DNA of 64,000 nt from Planctomycetota bacterium (lineage in GTDB: Bacteria > Planctomycetota > UBA1135 > GCA-002686595): NCBI GenBank assembly GCA_026692665.1, contig JAPLOF010000055.1, positions 1 through 64,000 of the forward strand. The letters are read 5' to 3'. The translations under genes were made by a program, and so were the position numbers. Positions 48,802 to 57,746 of the stretch are shown piece by piece. Below the pieces are notes generated by a model, which saw only the letters and a list, made by a program, of their open reading frames with translations, did not search any database and was not told the origin of the DNA. The first letter of the stretch is position 1. The number at the start of each line of letters is the position of its first letter.

Positions 48802-50526
48802 TCAGCGCGCGTCCACGTCGGCGCGCAGCGCGGCGAGCAGCTCGGTCCAGTTCGTGACCTCGACCAGCTTGGTCCGCACGTCGGGGTCCTTCAGCGTGCG
48901 GCTGATGTCGGCCAGGATCTCGAGCTGCGCGCCCGGCTGCTCGGCCGGCGTCAGGATCAGGAAGACGAGGCGCGCGTGCTTGCCGTCTGCGGCATCGAAA
49001 TCGATGCCCTGCGGTGCCACGCCGAAGGCGATCAGTGGGGCTGCCAGCCCGGCGATCCGTGCGTGCGGGATCGCGATCCCGTCGCCGATTCCCGTCGTGC
49101 CGAGCTTCTCGCGGGCCCAGACGGCCTCCTCGATGCGCCCCGCGTCGAGACCCGAAGCCGTCGCGAGCGCCCGGGAGAGTTCGCGCACGGCACCGCGACG
49201 GTCGGGACCCGCGATGCGGTCCACGAACGCCTTCGAGGAGAGCAGGCGCGCGAACCGCCGCGGGCGGGGTCGGCCCAGGACACGTTGGATGAACGGCCCG
49301 CTCATGACCGACGTCAAGAGGGCCATCACGACGAGCGCCACGAACATCCGCTCGTCGATGATCGCGTATTTCAGTGCCGTGAGACCGAGGACGATCTCCA
49401 TGCTGCCGCGCGCGTTCATCGCGAACCCGATGGCCCACGACTCGCGCGGGACCATGCCCGCCAGGCGAGCGCCCAGAGCGGCGCCCCCGATCTTCCCGAT
49501 GCAGGCGACGAGCATGACGACCGTGCACAGCAACAGGTCGAAGTTGGCCAGGAAATCGATCCCCACGCCGATCCCGGCGAAGAAGAGCGGCGCGAAGAAG
49601 CTCGACACGAATTCCCGGATCGTCGTGCGCGTGCGCTCGCGCAGGTGCGACGAATCGCCCAGCGCCACACCCGTCAGGAACGCGCCGAAGATGGCGTGCA
49701 ATCCGGCCTTTTCCGTCAGCGCGCCGCCGAACAGGGCCAGCGCGATCGCGAACACGAGGACGCCGCTCGGCCACGACGTGTGGGCCTGCACCCAGGGGAG
49801 GGTGCGGTGGATCGCCCAGCGTCCGACGGTCAGGATCAGGATCGTGAAGGCGATGATCGAAGCGACGACGCCCAACAACGCGTCGGGTGAGCCCTGGGCG
49901 CCGACCATGCCGAGGATCACGGCGAAGACCATCCACCCGACGAGGTCGTTGAAGATCGCGGAGGCGATCACGATCATCCCGAAGTCCGAGCGGTAGAGGT
50001 GGAGATCGATGAGCGTCTTCGCGATGACCGGCAGCGCACTGATCGAGAGCGCCGTCGCGAAGAACAGCGCGTGGGTGCCGCGGGGCACCTGGCCCGACCA
50101 GCCGACGAGCTCGGGGAACCTCCACGCGACAGCGAACCCGATCGCGAATGGCACCGCGATGCCGAGGATGCCGACCGACGAAGCGGCTCGCCCCTGCTTG
50201 AGCACGCGCGAGAAATCCACCTCGAGTCCGGCGACGAGCAGGAACAGGGTCACCGCGAGCAGGCGGATCCCCTCCAGCACGACCTTCGTCGGGCCTTCGG
50301 TCGGGAAGAGCCAGGCCTGCGCGTCCGGGAGGACGCGGCCCAGCAGAGCCGGACCGAGGAGCACGCCCGCGGCGAGCTCGCCCAGGACCGACGGCTGGTT
50401 CAGCTTGCGGGCCAGTTCCCCGAGGACCCGCGCGGCGACGAGCAGCACGCCCAGGGCGACGAGGAGTCGCGTGACCTCGCCGGGATCGAGCGCCGCGAGC
50501 GCCAGGTTGGGTACGTAGGGAAACAA
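48802..50526 (-). CDS. Cation:proton antiporter with C-terminal PTS EIIA domain
   Basis: 574 residues from a TTG at 50526. About twelve membrane segments follow the CPA2/Kef-NhaS pattern (LGELARKLNQPSVLGELAAGVLLGP, SISALPVIAKTLIDL, ASAIFNDLVGWMVF, GLHAIFGAFLTGVAL). After GRPRPRRFARLL the last 145 residues are a PTS_EIIA_2 domain with IGDGIAIPHARI containing the phosphoryl His. It would exchange Na+ or K+ for protons, with activity tied to phosphorylation state or nitrogen/PTS signalling. No PTS proteins are in the window. The start is inferred: the frame continues upstream, but only as antisense of the zincin gene. Confidence 0.85.
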   Translation of the reverse strand: MFPYVPNLALAALDPGEVTRLLVALGVLLVAARVLGELARKLNQPSVLGELAAGVLLGPALLGRVLPDAQAWLFPTEGPTKVVLEGIRLLAVTLFLLVAGLEVDFSRVLKQGRAASSVGILGIAVPFAIGFAVAWRFPELVGWSGQVPRGTHALFFATALSISALPVIAKTLIDLHLYRSDFGMIVIASAIFNDLVGWMVFAVILGMVGAQGSPDALLGVVASIIAFTILILTVGRWAIHRTLPWVQAHTSWPSGVLVFAIALALFGGALTEKAGLHAIFGAFLTGVALGDSSHLRERTRTTIREFVSSFFAPLFFAGIGVGIDFLANFDLLLCTVVMLVACIGKIGGAALGARLAGMVPRESWAIGFAMNARGSMEIVLGLTALKYAIIDERMFVALVVMALLTSVMSGPFIQRVLGRPRPRRFARLLSSKAFVDRIAGPDRRGAVRELSRALATASGLDAGRIEEAVWAREKLGTTGIGDGIAIPHARIAGLAAPLIAFGVAPQGIDFDAADGKHARLVFLILTPAEQPGAQLEILADISRTLKDPDVRTKLVEVTNWTELLAALRADVDAR

Positions 50527-50617
50527 GCTCTCGACGGCCGTGTCGGGCGAACAGGTTAGGTGCGGGCCCCGGTTCGAGCCATGCCCTTCTGGCGCGTGGG
50601 GCTCGCGGGAGGCGAGA

Positions 50618-51484
50618 ATGCCCGGCGTGGAGAACCAAGGAACGACGGGCGAGCCGAAGTGGAGCGGTTGGGACGAGGAGGAAGCCGGTCCCGAGGACGA
50701 GGCTCTGGATCGTGCCTGGACGGCGATCGACGCCGGCGATCCGGAGGCCGCGCTCCGCGAGCTCGAGAGCGTGGACGCCGACTGGCCGGACCGCTGGATC
50801 CCCGAGGGGATCGCGCGCACCGACCTCGGCGACCTGGCCGGCGCCCGGGCCGCCCTGGACCGCGTCCGCGAGGCGGCGGACGTCGACGACCATCCCGACT
50901 GGCTGTGGGCCGAGGGCTGCCTCCTCCTGGCCGAATGGCGCATCGGCGAAGCGCGCGCGGTGCTCGAGAAGCTCGCCGGCATCGAGCGCACGGTCGGGGT
51001 GCTCGAGCGCCTGTCGGTCGCGCACGAGATCCAGGGCGATTTCGCCGGCGCGGACCAGCTCGTGCGGGAGGCGCACGCGATCGACCCGGACGCGCTGCCC
51101 ATTCCGCCGCGCTTCGAGCACGCGGACTTCGAGCGCATCACGGCCGCGGCGGTCGAGGCCCTGCCCGCGGAGTTCCGGAGTTCGCTGGAGAACACCGAGA
51201 TCGTCGTCGAATCCGTGCCGTCCGAGTGGATGATCGACCTGGCCGACCCCGCCGGCACGCCGCCTGACCTGCTGGGCCTCTTCGTGGGCACGTCCCGCCT
51301 GGACGCGGCCGAGGACTCCACGGCCGAACTGCCCCCGCGCATCTTCCTGTTCCAGCGCAACCTGGAGCGCGCCTCCCGCGACGAGGCCGAGCTGGTCGAG
51401 CAGATCCGCACGACGCTCTACCACGAGATCGGGCACCTGCTGGGCTTCGACGAAGAGGGCGTCGCGGCGATGGGGCTCGAGTAG
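50618..51484 (+). CDS. TPR-domain protein with C-terminal minimal zincin (Zincin_1-like)
   Basis: 288 residues from ATG 50618, which has GGAGGCGAG as Shine-Dalgarno. N-terminal helices (ALDRAWTAIDAGDPEAALRELESVDADWP; ARAVLEKLAGIERTVGVLERLSVAHEIQG) are TPR-like. The last 120 residues match PF06262-type zincins: LPAEFRSSLENTEIVVESVPS, PDLLGLFVGTSRLD, PPRIFLFQRNLERA, TTLYHEIGHLLGFDEEGV with HEIGH. Proteolytic substrate unknown. It is 124 bases upstream of the bufferin precursor on the same strand, so a link is possible, but the gap has its own inverted repeat. Confidence 0.8.
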   Translation: MPGVENQGTTGEPKWSGWDEEEAGPEDEALDRAWTAIDAGDPEAALRELESVDADWPDRWIPEGIARTDLGDLAGARAALDRVREAADVDDHPDWLWAEGCLLLAEWRIGEARAVLEKLAGIERTVGVLERLSVAHEIQGDFAGADQLVREAHAIDPDALPIPPRFEHADFERITAAAVEALPAEFRSSLENTEIVVESVPSEWMIDLADPAGTPPDLLGLFVGTSRLDAAEDSTAELPPRIFLFQRNLERASRDEAELVEQIRTTLYHEIGHLLGFDEEGVAAMGLE

Positions 51485-51543: not shown

Positions 51544-51608
51544 GTAGGGCGGGAGCGTGGCTGGTGAATTCCACCGGCCGAGACACCGATCGACCGACTG
51601 GAGATTCC

Positions 51609-51971
51609 ATGAAGAACGTGACTCCCCTCCTGGCCGCCGCCATCGCGGCCCTTGCCGCCGGTGCGCCCCTCGCGGGCTGTCGCGCGGGCTCCGACAAGGA
51701 CGCCTCGATGAGCTCGATGGCCGAAGGCAAGCACGCCTGCAAGAGCATGAACGCGTGCAAGGGCCAGGGCGCCTGCAAGACCGCCAGCAACGCATGCGCC
51801 GGCCACAACGCCTGCAAGGGACAAGGCGGGTGCGCGACCGCGGAGCACCACTCGTGCAAGGGCCAGAATGCCTGCAAGGGCCAGGGCGGCTGCAAGTCGG
51901 GATCGAACGGGTGCGCGGGCAAGAACTCGTGCAAGGGCCAGGGCGGTTGCGCCGTCCCCGTCAAGCACTGA
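51609..51971 (+). CDS. Bufferin-type (BufA2-like) cysteine-rich RiPP metallophore precursor, predicted lipoprotein
   Basis: 120 residues. An N-terminal hydrophobic signal ends in lipobox PLAGC with Cys24. The mature part has four units, each C-x5-C-x5-C: Cys44/50/56, 63/69/75, 83/89/95 and 102/108/114. Units share the phrase NACKGQGGC or close variants and are rich in Lys, His, Asn and Gly. Including Cys24 there are 13 cysteines. KG-x-C repeats followed by DUF692 and DUF2063 genes are the hallmark of bufferins, in which cysteines are oxidised to metal-binding heterocycles that trap copper in the periplasm. The start at 51609 follows CTGGAG; a longer start at 51564 would precede the signal peptide with a polar tail. 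Confidence 0.85.
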   Translation: MKNVTPLLAAAIAALAAGAPLAGCRAGSDKDASMSSMAEGKHACKSMNACKGQGACKTASNACAGHNACKGQGGCATAEHHSCKGQNACKGQGGCKSGSNGCAGKNSCKGQGGCAVPVKH

Positions 51972-51984
51972 GAGCGGCTCCTCT

Positions 51985-52022
51985 GGGCGGGTCCACCGGC
52001 GCGCACGCCGGTGGACCCGCCC
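51985..52022 (+). terminator. Perfect 17-bp hairpin between precursor and maturase genes
   Basis: GGGCGGGTCCACCGGCG and CGCCGGTGGACCCGCCC enclose CGCA. It begins 13 bases after the precursor stop and ends 10 bases before the maturase start. It has no T-tract. It may act as an attenuator or processing site, so that much more precursor than enzyme is made. Confidence 0.65.
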
Positions 52023-52032
52023 GGTCCCTACC

Positions 52033-52890
52033 ATGAAAGCCCCGCGCTTCGATCTGCCGGCCCTTGGCGTCGGGATCGGACTGCGCACGACGCACTACGG
52101 GCGCGTGCTGGCCGAGCGCCCGGCGATCGACTGGTTCGAGGTCATCACCGAGAACTACCTCTCCACGGGCGGCCGGCCGCTGCGCGTCCTCGAGCAGGTC
52201 GCCGAGCGCTACCCGGTGGTCTTCCACGGGGTCTCGCTCTCGATCGGCAGCACGGATCCGCTCGATCGGAACTACCTGGCGCAGGTGAAAGACCTCGCCG
52301 CCCGCATCCATCCGCACTGGATCAGTGACCACCTCTGCTGGACGGGCGTCGCCGGCCGCAACGTCCACGACCTCCTGCCGCTGCCCTACACCGAAGAGTG
52401 CCTGCGACACGTCGTCGCGCGCGTGAGGCAGGTCCAGGACATCCTCGAGCGGCCGATCGCGCTCGAGAATCCGTCCTCGTACGTGCAGTTCCGCGCGTCG
52501 CAGATGAGCGAGGCCGAGTTCCTGGCGCGGATGGCCGAGGACGCCGATTGCGCCCTGCTGCTCGACGTGAACAACGTCTACGTCTCGAGCCGCAACCACG
52601 ACTTCGATCCCGTCGCCTACGTCGACGCGCTGCCGGCGGAACGCGTCGTGCAGTTCCACGTCGCGGGACACACGGACAAGGGCACGCACCTCCTCGACAC
52701 GCACTCCGGCACCGCGCGCCTGGAGGTGTGGGACCTCCTGCGCCACGCGCTGGAGCGCACGGGGCCGAGGGCGGTCCTCTACGAATGGGACGAGGACATC
52801 CCGGACCTGGATGTCGTGCACGCCGAAGCGCTGCGGGCGCGCGCTTTCCTCCAGCCTTCCACGCGCGGAGCCGCCCATGCCGCGCGGTGA
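52033..52890 (+). CDS. DUF692/MNIO-type oxidative RiPP maturase (BufB/MbnB-like)
   Basis: 285 residues, family length, TIM-barrel. Candidate iron ligands in conserved blocks: Glu40 in FEVITENY, His65 in VFHGVSLSIGS, Asp99/His100 in WISDHLCW, Glu145 in ALENPSSY, Asp178/Asn181 in LLLDVNNVYVSS, His209 and His213 in QFHVAGH, and the acidic YEWDED block near 250. Multinuclear non-heme-iron oxidases of this family convert precursor cysteines to oxazolone/thioamide or thiooxazole groups, and here would act on the CKGQGGC units. The ATG at 52033 precedes LPALGVGIGLR, the family's N-terminus. Its end overlaps the partner gene by 14 bases. Confidence 0.9.
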   Translation: MKAPRFDLPALGVGIGLRTTHYGRVLAERPAIDWFEVITENYLSTGGRPLRVLEQVAERYPVVFHGVSLSIGSTDPLDRNYLAQVKDLAARIHPHWISDHLCWTGVAGRNVHDLLPLPYTEECLRHVVARVRQVQDILERPIALENPSSYVQFRASQMSEAEFLARMAEDADCALLLDVNNVYVSSRNHDFDPVAYVDALPAERVVQFHVAGHTDKGTHLLDTHSGTARLEVWDLLRHALERTGPRAVLYEWDEDIPDLDVVHAEALRARAFLQPSTRGAAHAAR

Positions 52891-53689
52891 GCTCGACGAG
52901 ATCCAGACCTGGTTCCAGGCCGCCGTCGTGCGGCCGAGCCTTCCGCCCAGCCGCCGCGGAGCGAGCTCGGAGGCGGCGGAAGTCCATGTGCTGCATTCGC
53001 GCACGTTGACCGCACAGGAGCGGGTCGAGATCTACGCCGACATGCACGTGGCGCGGCTCGTGAACGTGCTGGCGGAGGACTACCCGGCCGTCCGCGCGGT
53101 CGCGGGCCATGACGACTTCGACGTCCTGGCGCGCGGCTACCTCGCCGACCACCCGCCACGGAGCTTCACGCTGTCCGTCCTGGGCCGACACCTGCCGGAG
53201 TGGATCGCGAGCAACGCGATCCTCCCGCGCCGCGAATTGCTGACCGACCTTGCGCGCCTCGAGCTCGCGATGACGCGCGTGTTCGACGCGCCGCGCGAGA
53301 GCGTCCTGGCGCCCGCGGACATCGCCGCGCTGCCTCCGAGCACGTGGGCGGACCCTCGTCCCCGTCTGATCTCCGCGCTCGAACTCCTGGAGTTCGAGCA
53401 CCGCGCGAACGCGATCGTGCGGGCGGTCCGGCAGGGCGAAGATCTGCCGCCCCTCGATCCGGCTCGGACACGCGTGCTCGTGTGGCGAAAGGACGACGTC
53501 GTGTGGCGCCAGGATCTCGATCCGGTGGCTTTCGCGGCGCTGCACGCCCTGTGGGAACGCGCGAGCCTCGCCGACGCGATCGCCGCCGCCGAGAAGGAGC
53601 ACGGCGGGGACCCGGCCGAGCTCGAGCCGCGCGTCGCGCAGTGGATGTCCGACTGGTCACAAGACGGGCTCTTCTCCTCGATCGAGTGA
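52877..53689 (+). CDS. DUF2063-family maturation partner (BufC/HvfC-like)
   Basis: 270 residues. The N-terminal DUF2063 part reads LDEIQTWFQAAVVRP, RVEIYADMHVARLVNVLAEDYPAVRAVAGHDDFDVLARGYLADHPP and SFTLSVLGRHLPEWI. The C-terminal half is winged-helix-like, with FAALHALWERASLADAIAAAEKE. In known bufferin and methanobactin-type loci, this partner binds the precursor leader and presents it to the DUF692 enzyme. ATG 52877 overlaps the last 14 bases of the maturase gene, indicating coupled synthesis of the complex. Confidence 0.88.
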   Translation: MPRGELDEIQTWFQAAVVRPSLPPSRRGASSEAAEVHVLHSRTLTAQERVEIYADMHVARLVNVLAEDYPAVRAVAGHDDFDVLARGYLADHPPRSFTLSVLGRHLPEWIASNAILPRRELLTDLARLELAMTRVFDAPRESVLAPADIAALPPSTWADPRPRLISALELLEFEHRANAIVRAVRQGEDLPPLDPARTRVLVWRKDDVVWRQDLDPVAFAALHALWERASLADAIAAAEKEHGGDPAELEPRVAQWMSDWSQDGLFSSIE

Positions 53690-53724: not shown

Positions 53725-54048
53725 ATGGACCGTCAGACGTATCTGAGCCTCGCCGACGCCGTCCTCGAGCGCGTCGCGCGCTGGGGCGACCAGTTCGATC
53801 CGGACGAGATCGAAGCCACGGGCACGGACGGCGTCGTGACGCTCGAGTTCGGGGATCGCGTGCGCTTCGTCCTGAACCGACAGACCGCCACGAACCAGAT
53901 GTGGTTCGCCGCGGGCGCGCGCGCGTGGCACTACGACTGGAACGCGGCGCGCGGCGTCTGGCTCGACGACAAGGACGGGCACGAGCTGCTGGCGCGCGTC
54001 GTCGAGGTCGTCGCGCACAAGGTCGGGCACGCGCTGCCGGCGATCTGA
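53725..54048 (+). CDS. cyaY: Frataxin-like iron-binding protein
   Basis: 107 residues, typical CyaY length. YLSLADAVLERVARWGDQFDPDEIEAT gives the acidic first helix, GVVTLEFGDRVRFVLNRQTATNQMWFAAGARAWHYDW the central sheet, and HELLARVVEVVAHKVG the last helix. Frataxins bind iron and modulate cysteine desulfurase and Fe-S assembly. It sits 35 bases after the bufferin partner gene, which is suggestive because the DUF692 maturase needs a multi-iron site. CyaY is best known from Proteobacteria and mitochondria, so its presence here is notable. Confidence 0.88.
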   Translation: MDRQTYLSLADAVLERVARWGDQFDPDEIEATGTDGVVTLEFGDRVRFVLNRQTATNQMWFAAGARAWHYDWNAARGVWLDDKDGHELLARVVEVVAHKVGHALPAI

Positions 54049-54056
54049 GATCGCGC

Positions 54057-57000
54057 TCAGCCGTCCTTTTTCTTCTTCTTGCCCCCCAAGAGGCCGTCGA
54101 GCAGGTCGTCGAGCCCCTTCTCGGCCGCCTTGCCAGCCGCGCTCTCGAGCAGGCCCTTCAGGAAGCCGTCCTGGAATCCGACACGCGGCTTGTTCCACGT
54201 GCCCGACAGCACGATCGGCACCGCGGTGTCGAGCGGCACGAACTCGCGGATCTTGCCCAGCTCCTTGTCGAACTTCTTGCCGAACATCGCGAGCGGCAAC
54301 TTCGTGGCGAGCGACATCTCGCCGTCGACTAGGCGCACCGAGCCGTCGAAGAGGATTTCGCGGCCGCCGAGCCGGATGGGCAGCTTGTCGTAGACCGCCA
54401 CGCCGTCCTTGATCGGAACCGAGAAAGCCGGCAAGCGCACGTCCGCGGCCTCGAGCGACACGCCCAGCTGCTCGAGCATCGGCAGGCCTTTGAACGAGAG
54501 AGTCCCGAGGTCGATGCGGAAGACGCCCGAGAGCTTCGAGACGTCGCTGCCCAGCGCGAAGTGCACGTCGCTCGAGTTCAGCAGGAACGGCTCGAATTCC
54601 GCGCTCGACGTGACCTGCTGCGCATCGACGGCGCCCAGGAAACTGGCCTTCTTCAGCATGGGCAGCAGGCTGCCCACGACGCGGTCCATGACGAGCGGCC
54701 CGAGCGCGACGTCCACGTCCAGACCGTCGGTCTTGTCGATGACGAGCGTCCCGTCCTCGAGGTGCGCGGCGAGCACGACTCGGTTCTTGCCGCTCTCGAC
54801 GCGCGCCTCGATCGTCCCGCGGTCGAACGCCACCTCGGGCGCCTGCACGTCGATCAGGATGCGGTCGCCCAGCGCCTCGACGAGCAGACCGTTCTGTCCC
54901 GCCAGCGCGTCGACAAGCGCGGTGGGCACGTTCTCGGCGTGGACGCGCGCGGACGCGCGAAACGTCTTCCAGGCTCCTTCGCCCTGGAGCTTCTCGAGCG
55001 GATCGAGGGCGACGAGGTCGAGCGCGAGCTCGCCCGGCGGCGTGTCCTCGACCTTGGCGCTGAAGCGCAGCGACGGCTTCACGGTCGGCGAGAGGGCGGC
55101 CGAGAGACGCGCGCCGCTCAGCACGACCGCGCGTTTCGCCGCGTCGGTCTTGGCGTCCGCGTAGGCGATCGACGGCAGAACGACCTCGAGCTTCGCGCTC
55201 GTGCCCGCGAGGCGTCGCGCGACGTCGGGCGCCTCGAGCGGCGTCGCGAACTCGCGCACCGAGATCGTGATCGCGCTCGGGCCCGTGCCGGCGAGTTCGA
55301 CGCGTGTGCCCGCGGGCAGCGAAGGTCCGAGCCGCGCGCGCAGGAGCTCCGGCGTCACCTGGATGTTGGCCTGGAGTCCTTCGTCGCCTGTCGCCACGAA
55401 CTGGCCGTCCGCGAGGCGGCCCTTCACACCGACGCGCCCCGAAGCACCGACGAGGGATACGTCGAGCGAACCCGACGTCGGCAGCGGCCCCTCCGCGCGC
55501 ACCACGAGGTCCAGCGCCGGTCCGAGGAGCGGCGCCAACTGGTCGGGCTGCCCGGCAAGCTTCTCGAGCGTCACGGTGTCGAGTCCGCGCAGCGTCAGGT
55601 CCACGGAGCCGGAAGGCGACGTGCCGGACCGCAGCGCGAGGAGCGGCTCGCGGGGACGTGCCTCGACCTCGAGTCGCGCCGCCGGTCGCGTCGGTCCGTT
55701 CAAGAGCACGTCCGCGCCGAGCTGAACACGCGGCGGCGCGCCGGCCGCGACTTGGAGCTCGAGCTTCGCCCCGCGCACCTCCGCCGGGGCACCCGCGGCG
55801 CGCGTTTCCGCCGAGTTCCAGGCCGCGTTCGGCAGGTTCACGTCGAGGCGGGCCGCGAGCCCGGCCAGGAGCGCGTCGACGCCCACGAACGCGCCCGACC
55901 GTGCGTCGCGGAGCGGCGCCGAGAGCGCGGTGAGCGACACCTGGAGCGGTCCGCTGAGCTCGATCGACGATCCCGAAGGCAGCCGCGGCCCGATCTCGGC
56001 CGCGACGAACTCGGGCGTGGGCTGCCACGAGACGAGCGTCGGCGCCGCGGGATGGCTGGTCAGCGCGCCGTCCACGATCCTGGCGTGCAGGCTCGCGTTG
56101 GCGTGCGCCGAGTTCAGCAGCACGCTCACGTCGCCGCGCTCGAGGTTCGCATCGCGCACTTCGATCGAGAGGCTCGCGACCGGACCGATCGCACTCGCGA
56201 TGCGCGCTCCCTGGCCGGAGAACTCGCCGAGCGCGAGCATCGACAGTCCATCGATGCGGGCGACCAGGTGGAGAGGCGGAACGGGCCCGCCCGCGAGCAT
56301 CCCGAAGGCGTCGGGCACGGTGGCATCGACGCGCATGCTACCCGGCGCACCGGCATCGAGGGCCGCTTCGAAGTGCGCGGCCAGAGGCTGTCCCGGCGCC
56401 GCGCGCGCGGTGAGCTTCATCGCGGAGATCCCGGCCGTGAGCTTCGCCGCCCGCAGCGCGTCCGTCTCGATCGTCGCGGAACCGGGCAGGTCGACCTCGA
56501 CGTCGATCTCGGCCTTCTCCAGCGCCGGACGCAGGCTGGCCATGTCGCGCGCCTTCGGATCCGGCAGCGGCAGCCGCAGCTTCGGCACGCGAACCGTCCA
56601 CGATTTCCCGGCATCCGCGAGCGTCACGCGCGCGTCCGGCGGCAGCTTCGCGCGCAGCACGCGCTCGAGGATCCCGCGCGGCATCGGCGTCGTCGCGGTG
56701 AGGAACGGCTGGTCGCCGCCCGTGATCTCGCCGCCGGCGAGCCGCGCGTGGATCGCGACGTCGGCGTTCGCGCCGTCGAGCTCGAGGTCGGCGGTCCCCT
56801 GCTCGGCCGACTCGGCCTTCACGTCGAAGCGCAGCGCGAACGTCGGCCCGAGGACTTCGACGAGGTCGCCCGACAGACCCGCGAGTCCATCGACGAGCGC
56901 CGTCGAGAAGCCCTCGATGCGCCCCTTCGCCTGCGTGCGTCCGAGCGGCCAGCGCGCGGCGGGATCGATCGGCCCGTCGACCTTCACGTCGACCTCGAGC

Positions 57001-57746
57001 GTGCCCGGCTTCTCGCCGGCGATCCGCCCGGTGACGAGCGCGACCAGCGGCGTCGAGGGCTTCTTGAAGGCGTGGAGGACGGCGTCCTCGATCACGAACG
57101 GCTTCCCGAGGCGCCGCGTGTCGGCATCCGACCAGGAGAGGTGCTTCACGTTCACGCGCACGTCGGCGTCGAGGTCGCGCACGAACGCGGCCGCGTCGAA
57201 CGGCGCCTCGTCACCGCCCGGCTGGCCCCCCGTCCCGCTGCTCGCCCCGCGCGGCGCGAGCGCACGCTGCAGATTCGTCGTGCCCGCCTCGTCGGCCGCA
57301 AGGGTCGCGTCCACGTCGAGCACGATCGTGCCGAGGCGCGTCCCGCCGGACCGGATCAGGCTCCACAGCGACGGCAGCGTCGCGTCCGCGCGCAGGACCT
57401 CCGCACCCGACGGATCGAGGAGGCGCACGCCGCGCACGGATTGCTCCCCGAACCACGCCAGCGACGCCGAGCCGATCTCGAGCCGGCCCTGGTAGCGCGC
57501 GTCGAACGCGGCGGCCCCGCGGCTCGTGGCGGTCCCCGCGAGGAGCGTGGGCAGGAGCAGGACGAGGACCAGGAGGCTCCCGAAGGCGAACGCCGTGCAG
57601 CCCAGGGTCGTCTTGAAGAGGAAACCCAGGAGGCTCCGCGGGCGGGGAGGCGTTTGGGCGGTCGGGTCGAGATGGGGCGTGCTCAAGGCGGGCTCTCCAG
57701 GCGGACGGGCGGCCGCATCGTGCAAGCCCCGGGCCGTCCGGTCCAT
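54057..57746 (-). CDS. Giant AsmA-like membrane-anchored protein with four internal repeats
   Basis: 1229 residues. A cytosolic N-terminus is followed by one membrane helix (TAFAFGSLLVLVLLLPTLLAG) and ARYQGRLEIGSASLAWFGEQSVRGVRLLDPSG, a typical AsmA/DUF748-like opening. The remainder is beta-rich with a unit of about 220 residues repeated from near 285, 505, 725 and 945: an LAGxxxxLxxxLGP-type opening, an AHARLxDG strand, then LxxxLPxGxxVEL. The C-terminus contains PIKDGVAVYDKLPIRLGG and LDTAVPIVLSGTWNKPRVGFQ, then a Lys-rich tail. Relatives of this class are thought to bridge inner and outer membranes for lipid transport. It is convergent with cyaY, 8 bases between stops. Confidence 0.75.
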   Translation of the reverse strand: MDRTARGLHDAAARPPGEPALSTPHLDPTAQTPPRPRSLLGFLFKTTLGCTAFAFGSLLVLVLLLPTLLAGTATSRGAAAFDARYQGRLEIGSASLAWFGEQSVRGVRLLDPSGAEVLRADATLPSLWSLIRSGGTRLGTIVLDVDATLAADEAGTTNLQRALAPRGASSGTGGQPGGDEAPFDAAAFVRDLDADVRVNVKHLSWSDADTRRLGKPFVIEDAVLHAFKKPSTPLVALVTGRIAGEKPGTLEVDVKVDGPIDPAARWPLGRTQAKGRIEGFSTALVDGLAGLSGDLVEVLGPTFALRFDVKAESAEQGTADLELDGANADVAIHARLAGGEITGGDQPFLTATTPMPRGILERVLRAKLPPDARVTLADAGKSWTVRVPKLRLPLPDPKARDMASLRPALEKAEIDVEVDLPGSATIETDALRAAKLTAGISAMKLTARAAPGQPLAAHFEAALDAGAPGSMRVDATVPDAFGMLAGGPVPPLHLVARIDGLSMLALGEFSGQGARIASAIGPVASLSIEVRDANLERGDVSVLLNSAHANASLHARIVDGALTSHPAAPTLVSWQPTPEFVAAEIGPRLPSGSSIELSGPLQVSLTALSAPLRDARSGAFVGVDALLAGLAARLDVNLPNAAWNSAETRAAGAPAEVRGAKLELQVAAGAPPRVQLGADVLLNGPTRPAARLEVEARPREPLLALRSGTSPSGSVDLTLRGLDTVTLEKLAGQPDQLAPLLGPALDLVVRAEGPLPTSGSLDVSLVGASGRVGVKGRLADGQFVATGDEGLQANIQVTPELLRARLGPSLPAGTRVELAGTGPSAITISVREFATPLEAPDVARRLAGTSAKLEVVLPSIAYADAKTDAAKRAVVLSGARLSAALSPTVKPSLRFSAKVEDTPPGELALDLVALDPLEKLQGEGAWKTFRASARVHAENVPTALVDALAGQNGLLVEALGDRILIDVQAPEVAFDRGTIEARVESGKNRVVLAAHLEDGTLVIDKTDGLDVDVALGPLVMDRVVGSLLPMLKKASFLGAVDAQQVTSSAEFEPFLLNSSDVHFALGSDVSKLSGVFRIDLGTLSFKGLPMLEQLGVSLEAADVRLPAFSVPIKDGVAVYDKLPIRLGGREILFDGSVRLVDGEMSLATKLPLAMFGKKFDKELGKIREFVPLDTAVPIVLSGTWNKPRVGFQDGFLKGLLESAAGKAAEKGLDDLLDGLLGGKKKKKDG

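Follow-up and report, generated by a model that had tools for sequence, protein, structure and literature searches.

In the 64,000-nucleotide stretch of Planctomycetota DNA analysed here (the window), three forward-strand genes lie in the order bufA, bufB, bufC. The first, bufA (51609..51971), follows a ribosome-binding-like GGAG at 51600..51603 and encodes a precursor of 120 aa. Its N-terminal signal, MKNVTPLLAAAIAALAAGAPLAGC, is recognised by eye as that of a lipoprotein, with a Lys, a hydrophobic stretch and an LAGC lipobox at residues 21-24, in which the lipobox Cys is Cys24. In addition to this Cys, the precursor has 12 core Cys. These form two 34-residue modules with six Cys each, and the modules are identical to one another at 25 of 34 positions. 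The modules are of the Cys-Lys type (NACKGQGGC) and not of the EGKCG (Lys-Cys) type; CKGQGGC occurs exactly three times and CKGQGAC once. BufA scores 74.6 bits against the NCBIfam model NF050166, Cu_RiPP_BufA2 (cut-off 60, E = 5.2e-21). Bufferin 2 precursors have an export signal and either 6 or 12 core Cys, and BufA has 12 together with a signal judged by eye.

Within the order to which the window belongs, all 12 core Cys are invariant in 11 precursors (the window included), and the Cys at the end of the signal is aligned wherever the N-terminus is retained. In a sample across the phylum, precursor matches are found in 42 of 294 genomes. Two loci (L166 and L172) contain Buf2-like precursors that apparently have three 6-Cys modules, or approximately 18 core Cys, where the 2025 survey gives 6 or 12. 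Many Planctomycetota Buf2-like precursors (L048, L050, L054, L056, L063 and L178) also have a charged extension C-terminal to the Cys core, roughly W-K-x-x-R-x-x-F-E ... G-K-x-x-G-x-A-P, which the window BufA does not have.

The second gene, bufB (52033..52890), encodes a 285-aa bufferin maturase that is a multinuclear non-haem iron oxidase (MNIO, formerly DUF692). It matches NCBIfam NF050167 (MNIO_BufB) with 365.8 bits (cut-off 310, E = 1.1e-109) and PF05114 with 368 bits (E = 2.4e-110). The iron ligands of TglH are His71, His107, Glu151, Asp184, Asn187, His216, Asp229, His231 and Glu258 (PMC10880893), and these nine map to H65, H100, E145, D178, N181, H209, D222, H224 and E251 of BufB. All nine, together with D253, are invariant in an alignment of 99 homologues. 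When aligned to 3BWW, D253 falls at the position of the catalytic base reported for FonB. The adjoining position 254 is a Glu and not the Asp that is reported beside the catalytic base in Cys-Lys enzymes (PMC13097082); this site is variable among the homologues. The nearest MNIO relative from the same family is 69% identical and is encoded on a Planctomycetota contig.

The third gene, bufC (52877..53689), overlaps bufB by 14 bp (52877-52890) and encodes a 270-aa DUF2063 + RRE partner (PME type 1). BufC matches PF09836 (DUF2063) with 67.5 bits (cut-off 27.2, E = 1.3e-18), and a C-terminal match to NGO1945_C falls just below threshold (25.2 vs 27). A sequence-profile search for a solved relative of BufC returned none, but the fold search did find matches. 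The AlphaFold model (pLDDT 92.5) is similar to TglI (8hci, 1e-6) and NGO1945 (3dee, 1e-4) in Foldseek and, at weak E-values, to RRE domains of lasso-peptide enzymes such as 5v1u.

The gap between bufA and bufB is 61 bp long (MFE -47.2 kcal/mol, z -5.3) and contains a perfect inverted repeat at 51985..52022, which an earlier sequence-only reading of this DNA overlooked. The arms are 17 bp each (51985-52001 and 52006-52022) and the loop is 4 nt. There is no T-run 3' of the 17-bp stem, the hairpin is present as a single copy in the window, and no known RNA family was found at this site in Rfam. Of 67 related bufA-bufB gaps, 16 have a perfect stem of 9 bp or more, and two of these come from Legionella that are close relatives of one another. 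In 60 dinucleotide shuffles the mean was 0.53 such gaps and the highest count was 2. The 16 loci are the window, L013, L035, L040, L053, L063, L068, L081, L088, L094-L097, L103, L108 and L110. Their stems are 9-17 bp long with sequences that are unrelated between loci, and the L097 and L110 hairpins are among the terminator-like ones with A/T tracts. The nearest relatives of the window locus (L003 and L004) have perfect stems of just 5 bp; the hairpin is therefore recurrent but not universal.

The hairpin 3' of bufA would probably lead to an excess of precursor over enzyme, either by a partial stop of transcription or by protection of the upstream mRNA. The best reading is that it serves to uncouple the amounts of precursor and enzyme. 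Hairpins, terminators and attenuation are not mentioned in the text of the 2025 survey (PMC12452194).

Because the BufA2 and BufB models score above their cut-offs and the fold of BufC is like that of TglI and NGO1945, bufABC is assigned to the bufferin-2 (captophorin) clusters. It is a genuine but ordinary member of these recently described clusters of copper-binding, modified Cys-rich proteins. The gene order agrees with that of described clusters, which is strictly bufABC (PMC12452194). The sequence-only reading is borne out in its main points: a signal-peptide protein with CKGQGGC repeats encoded at 51609, DUF692-like and DUF2063-like genes with a 14-base overlap, and a bufferin-type RiPP metallophore cluster in a planctomycete. 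The profile searches that it proposed place all three proteins above cut-off, and the product of 52033-52890 has both the DUF692 match and the nine ligands. That reading had also regarded the combination of repeat number, lipobox and frataxin neighbour as undescribed. These features are present, but the novelty of their combination is not supported. In the survey, 90% of Buf2 precursors have 6 Cys, the remaining 10% have 12 Cys in duplicated modules, and approximately 16% of Buf2 have lipoprotein signals (PMC12452194), so both the Cys number and the lipobox of BufA are within the described range. The frataxin neighbour is a matter of position, as set out below.

The most similar characterised system is bufferin 2 of Caulobacter vibrioides (BufA2B2C2; Buf_6/12Cys family). 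The two share a signal-bearing Cys-Lys precursor, an MNIO, a DUF2063 partner and the order A-B-C, and 12-Cys duplicated-module forms and lipoprotein signals occur in that family as well. The window locus differs in its Planctomycetota host, in its long bufA-bufB hairpin, in having no recognised DoxX gene and in Glu254. Captophorins are a grouping with 5-thiooxazoles in which a Cys-Lys precursor group, with NACKG-type motifs included, is named (PMC13097082). Fontiphorin, oxazolin (HvfABC) and gonophorin likewise combine an MNIO, a PME type 1 partner and a Cys-repeat precursor, and 5-thiooxazole chemistry is expected at the window locus as in these captophorins. Their precursors consist of EGKCG repeats, whereas the window precursor consists of Cys-Lys modules. 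Membership in the HvfA/oxazolin group is ruled out on these repeats and on the HvfB equivalog model, which gives BufB 266.8 bits (cut-off 360); BufC is also below the cut-off of the HvfC equivalog model (50.4 bits, cut-off 142). The methanobactin enzymes MbnBC and the TglHI pair share the iron ligands and the enzyme family, and BufC has a fold like TglI, but their substrates do not have a signal peptide, their products are different and the enzymes are more distant. Plasmid carriage was rejected, as there is just one weak plasmid record.

By analogy with characterised members, BufA would be synthesised with its lipoprotein signal peptide and then acted upon by a cytoplasmic BufB-BufC complex, in which the RRE domain of BufC would grip the precursor. 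The iron cluster of BufB and O2 would oxidise the core Cys, probably to 5-thiooxazoles (-4 Da each). Export by Sec would follow, and the modified protein would be lipidated at Cys24 and held in a membrane, where its two 6-Cys modules may bind excess Cu(I)/Cu(II). A metal trap at the membrane or periplasm, probably mainly for copper, is, on family analogy, a well-founded interpretation of BufA. Caulobacter Buf2 is reported to behave like Buf1, with copper protection, an equal loss of mass per Cys and a band at 305 nm (PMC12452194). Taken as a whole, an explanation that combines a bufferin-2 cluster, a modified, lipidated and copper-binding BufA, a hairpin that sets stoichiometry and a frataxin that is an older neighbour is very probably correct. 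Glu254, the sub-threshold NGO1945_C match and a signal peptide recognised by eye count against it.

The copper role is drawn from family analogy, since the immediate neighbours examined include no recognised regulator or pump for copper, and no recognised sigma factor or DoxX gene. A search for a sigma-70 consensus promoter found none; this consensus is uninformative for the organism. The lack of a recognised copper-specific gene beside bufABC would also fit a cluster of the same type whose physiological role concerns a different thiophilic metal or oxidative stress, and the survey includes MerC-bufferin fusions and gold-induced bufferin operons (PMC12452194). The characterised bufferins and captophorins, however, bind copper (PMC12452194, PMC13097082), and a target other than copper is unlikely. 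It is much less likely again that BufA is an unmodified, metallothionein-like Cys-rich lipoprotein beside a degenerate or unrelated MNIO. Some Buf2 precursors are known without an MNIO (PMC12452194), but at this locus the MNIO ligands are intact and invariant, the partner fold of BufC is intact and the trio stays together in relatives.

The gene 3' of bufC is cyaY (53725..54048, forward strand), which encodes the iron chaperone frataxin (TIGR03421, 70.2 bits, cut-off 53.25) and is probably not part of the system. Upstream of bufA, and outside the system, is a conserved neighbour that encodes a TPR + zincin-like protein (50624..51484, forward strand; PF06262, 73.5 bits). A reverse-strand Na+/H+ exchanger-PTS EIIA ORF (48802-51411), listed as 869 aa, overlaps this gene; its exchanger domain begins at residue 329, so the true start is probably further in. 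On the other side of the site, a 1229-aa reverse-strand protein (54057-57746) has no Pfam match and is AsmA-like by appearance only; it adjoins cyaY in several relatives too.

The arrangement around cyaY could be read as an operon in which frataxin is a functional part and supplies iron to the MNIO. MNIOs require iron, cyaY is on the same strand as bufC after a 35-bp gap with no terminator-like site, and the order zincin-bufABC-cyaY is repeated in a second genome (G007, locus L143). In a congeneric species (G001, locus L142), however, bufABC is absent from the site: just 20 bp separate the end of the zincin/TPR gene from cyaY, and no MNIO was found in that genome. Its gene order (epimerase, acpS, CoA-binding, nth, antiporter, zincin, cyaY, AsmA-like, AAA) is that of the window around the site. 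Of 37 genomes from the window's family, 31 have cyaY; in the other bufB-containing genomes of this family it is at another site (for example, G031, G032 and G033) or not detected. Among 61 genomes, cyaY is found in 12 of 19 with bufB and in 30 of 42 others, which is no co-occurrence beyond chance (Fisher p = 0.56); several of the seven bufB genomes without a detected cyaY are incomplete drafts. Frataxin as a part of the system was rejected on the same-genus arrangement and the absence of co-occurrence, and the comparison within the genus makes an attractive operon idea very improbable. The narrower proposal, that bufABC precedes cyaY so that co-transcribed frataxin can act as an iron donor devoted to loading the MNIO cluster, is slightly less credible still; if true, it would connect frataxin with RiPP maturation for the first time. 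As the zincin-cyaY arrangement occurs with and without bufABC, the three genes are a cassette that has either come in or dropped out between two neighbours of older standing. Frataxin is the older neighbour, and bufABC is present or absent before it depending on the species.

Outside the window, many related precursors have a different type of signal. In the set of genome contigs, a precursor was recognised at 16 Planctomycetota loci, and in 15 of these an RR-x-F-type motif precedes the hydrophobic stretch (for example, MNDSELNRRDFERLAMAALGGMLAG in L050). The exception is the family of the window; the window BufA contains no RR motif. The motif is present in 7 of 13 loci from Acidobacteria and in 1 of 25 from Proteobacteria, where it is doubtful. 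In the phylum sample, about half of the precursors contain an RR motif, some with a lipobox as well (L160). The twin-arginine form NRRDFxK is seen in L038, L043, L048, L050, L054, L056, L063, L071, L075, L032, L036, L073 and others. Against the NCBIfam BufA2 model (cut-off 60), six of the Planctomycetota Tat-like precursors score just 19-32 bits. The general Tat model stays below its cut-off, although near it in 2 of 10 precursors, and the precursors are thus Tat-like by motif only. These motifs suggest that twin-arginine Buf2-like precursors, which make up most of the Planctomycetota and about half of the Acidobacteria loci, are exported by Tat rather than Sec. Tat exports finished proteins. 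The survey asks how too-early Sec export before modification is prevented (PMC12452194), and Tat would be one natural answer. No paper linking MNIO precursors to Tat was found in the literature searched.

The window locus adds a clear lipoprotein 12-Cys bufferin from the Planctomycetota to a family known mainly from Pseudomonadota. The recurrent hairpin between the precursor and enzyme genes, and the Tat-like signals on many related precursors, may matter more than the locus itself.
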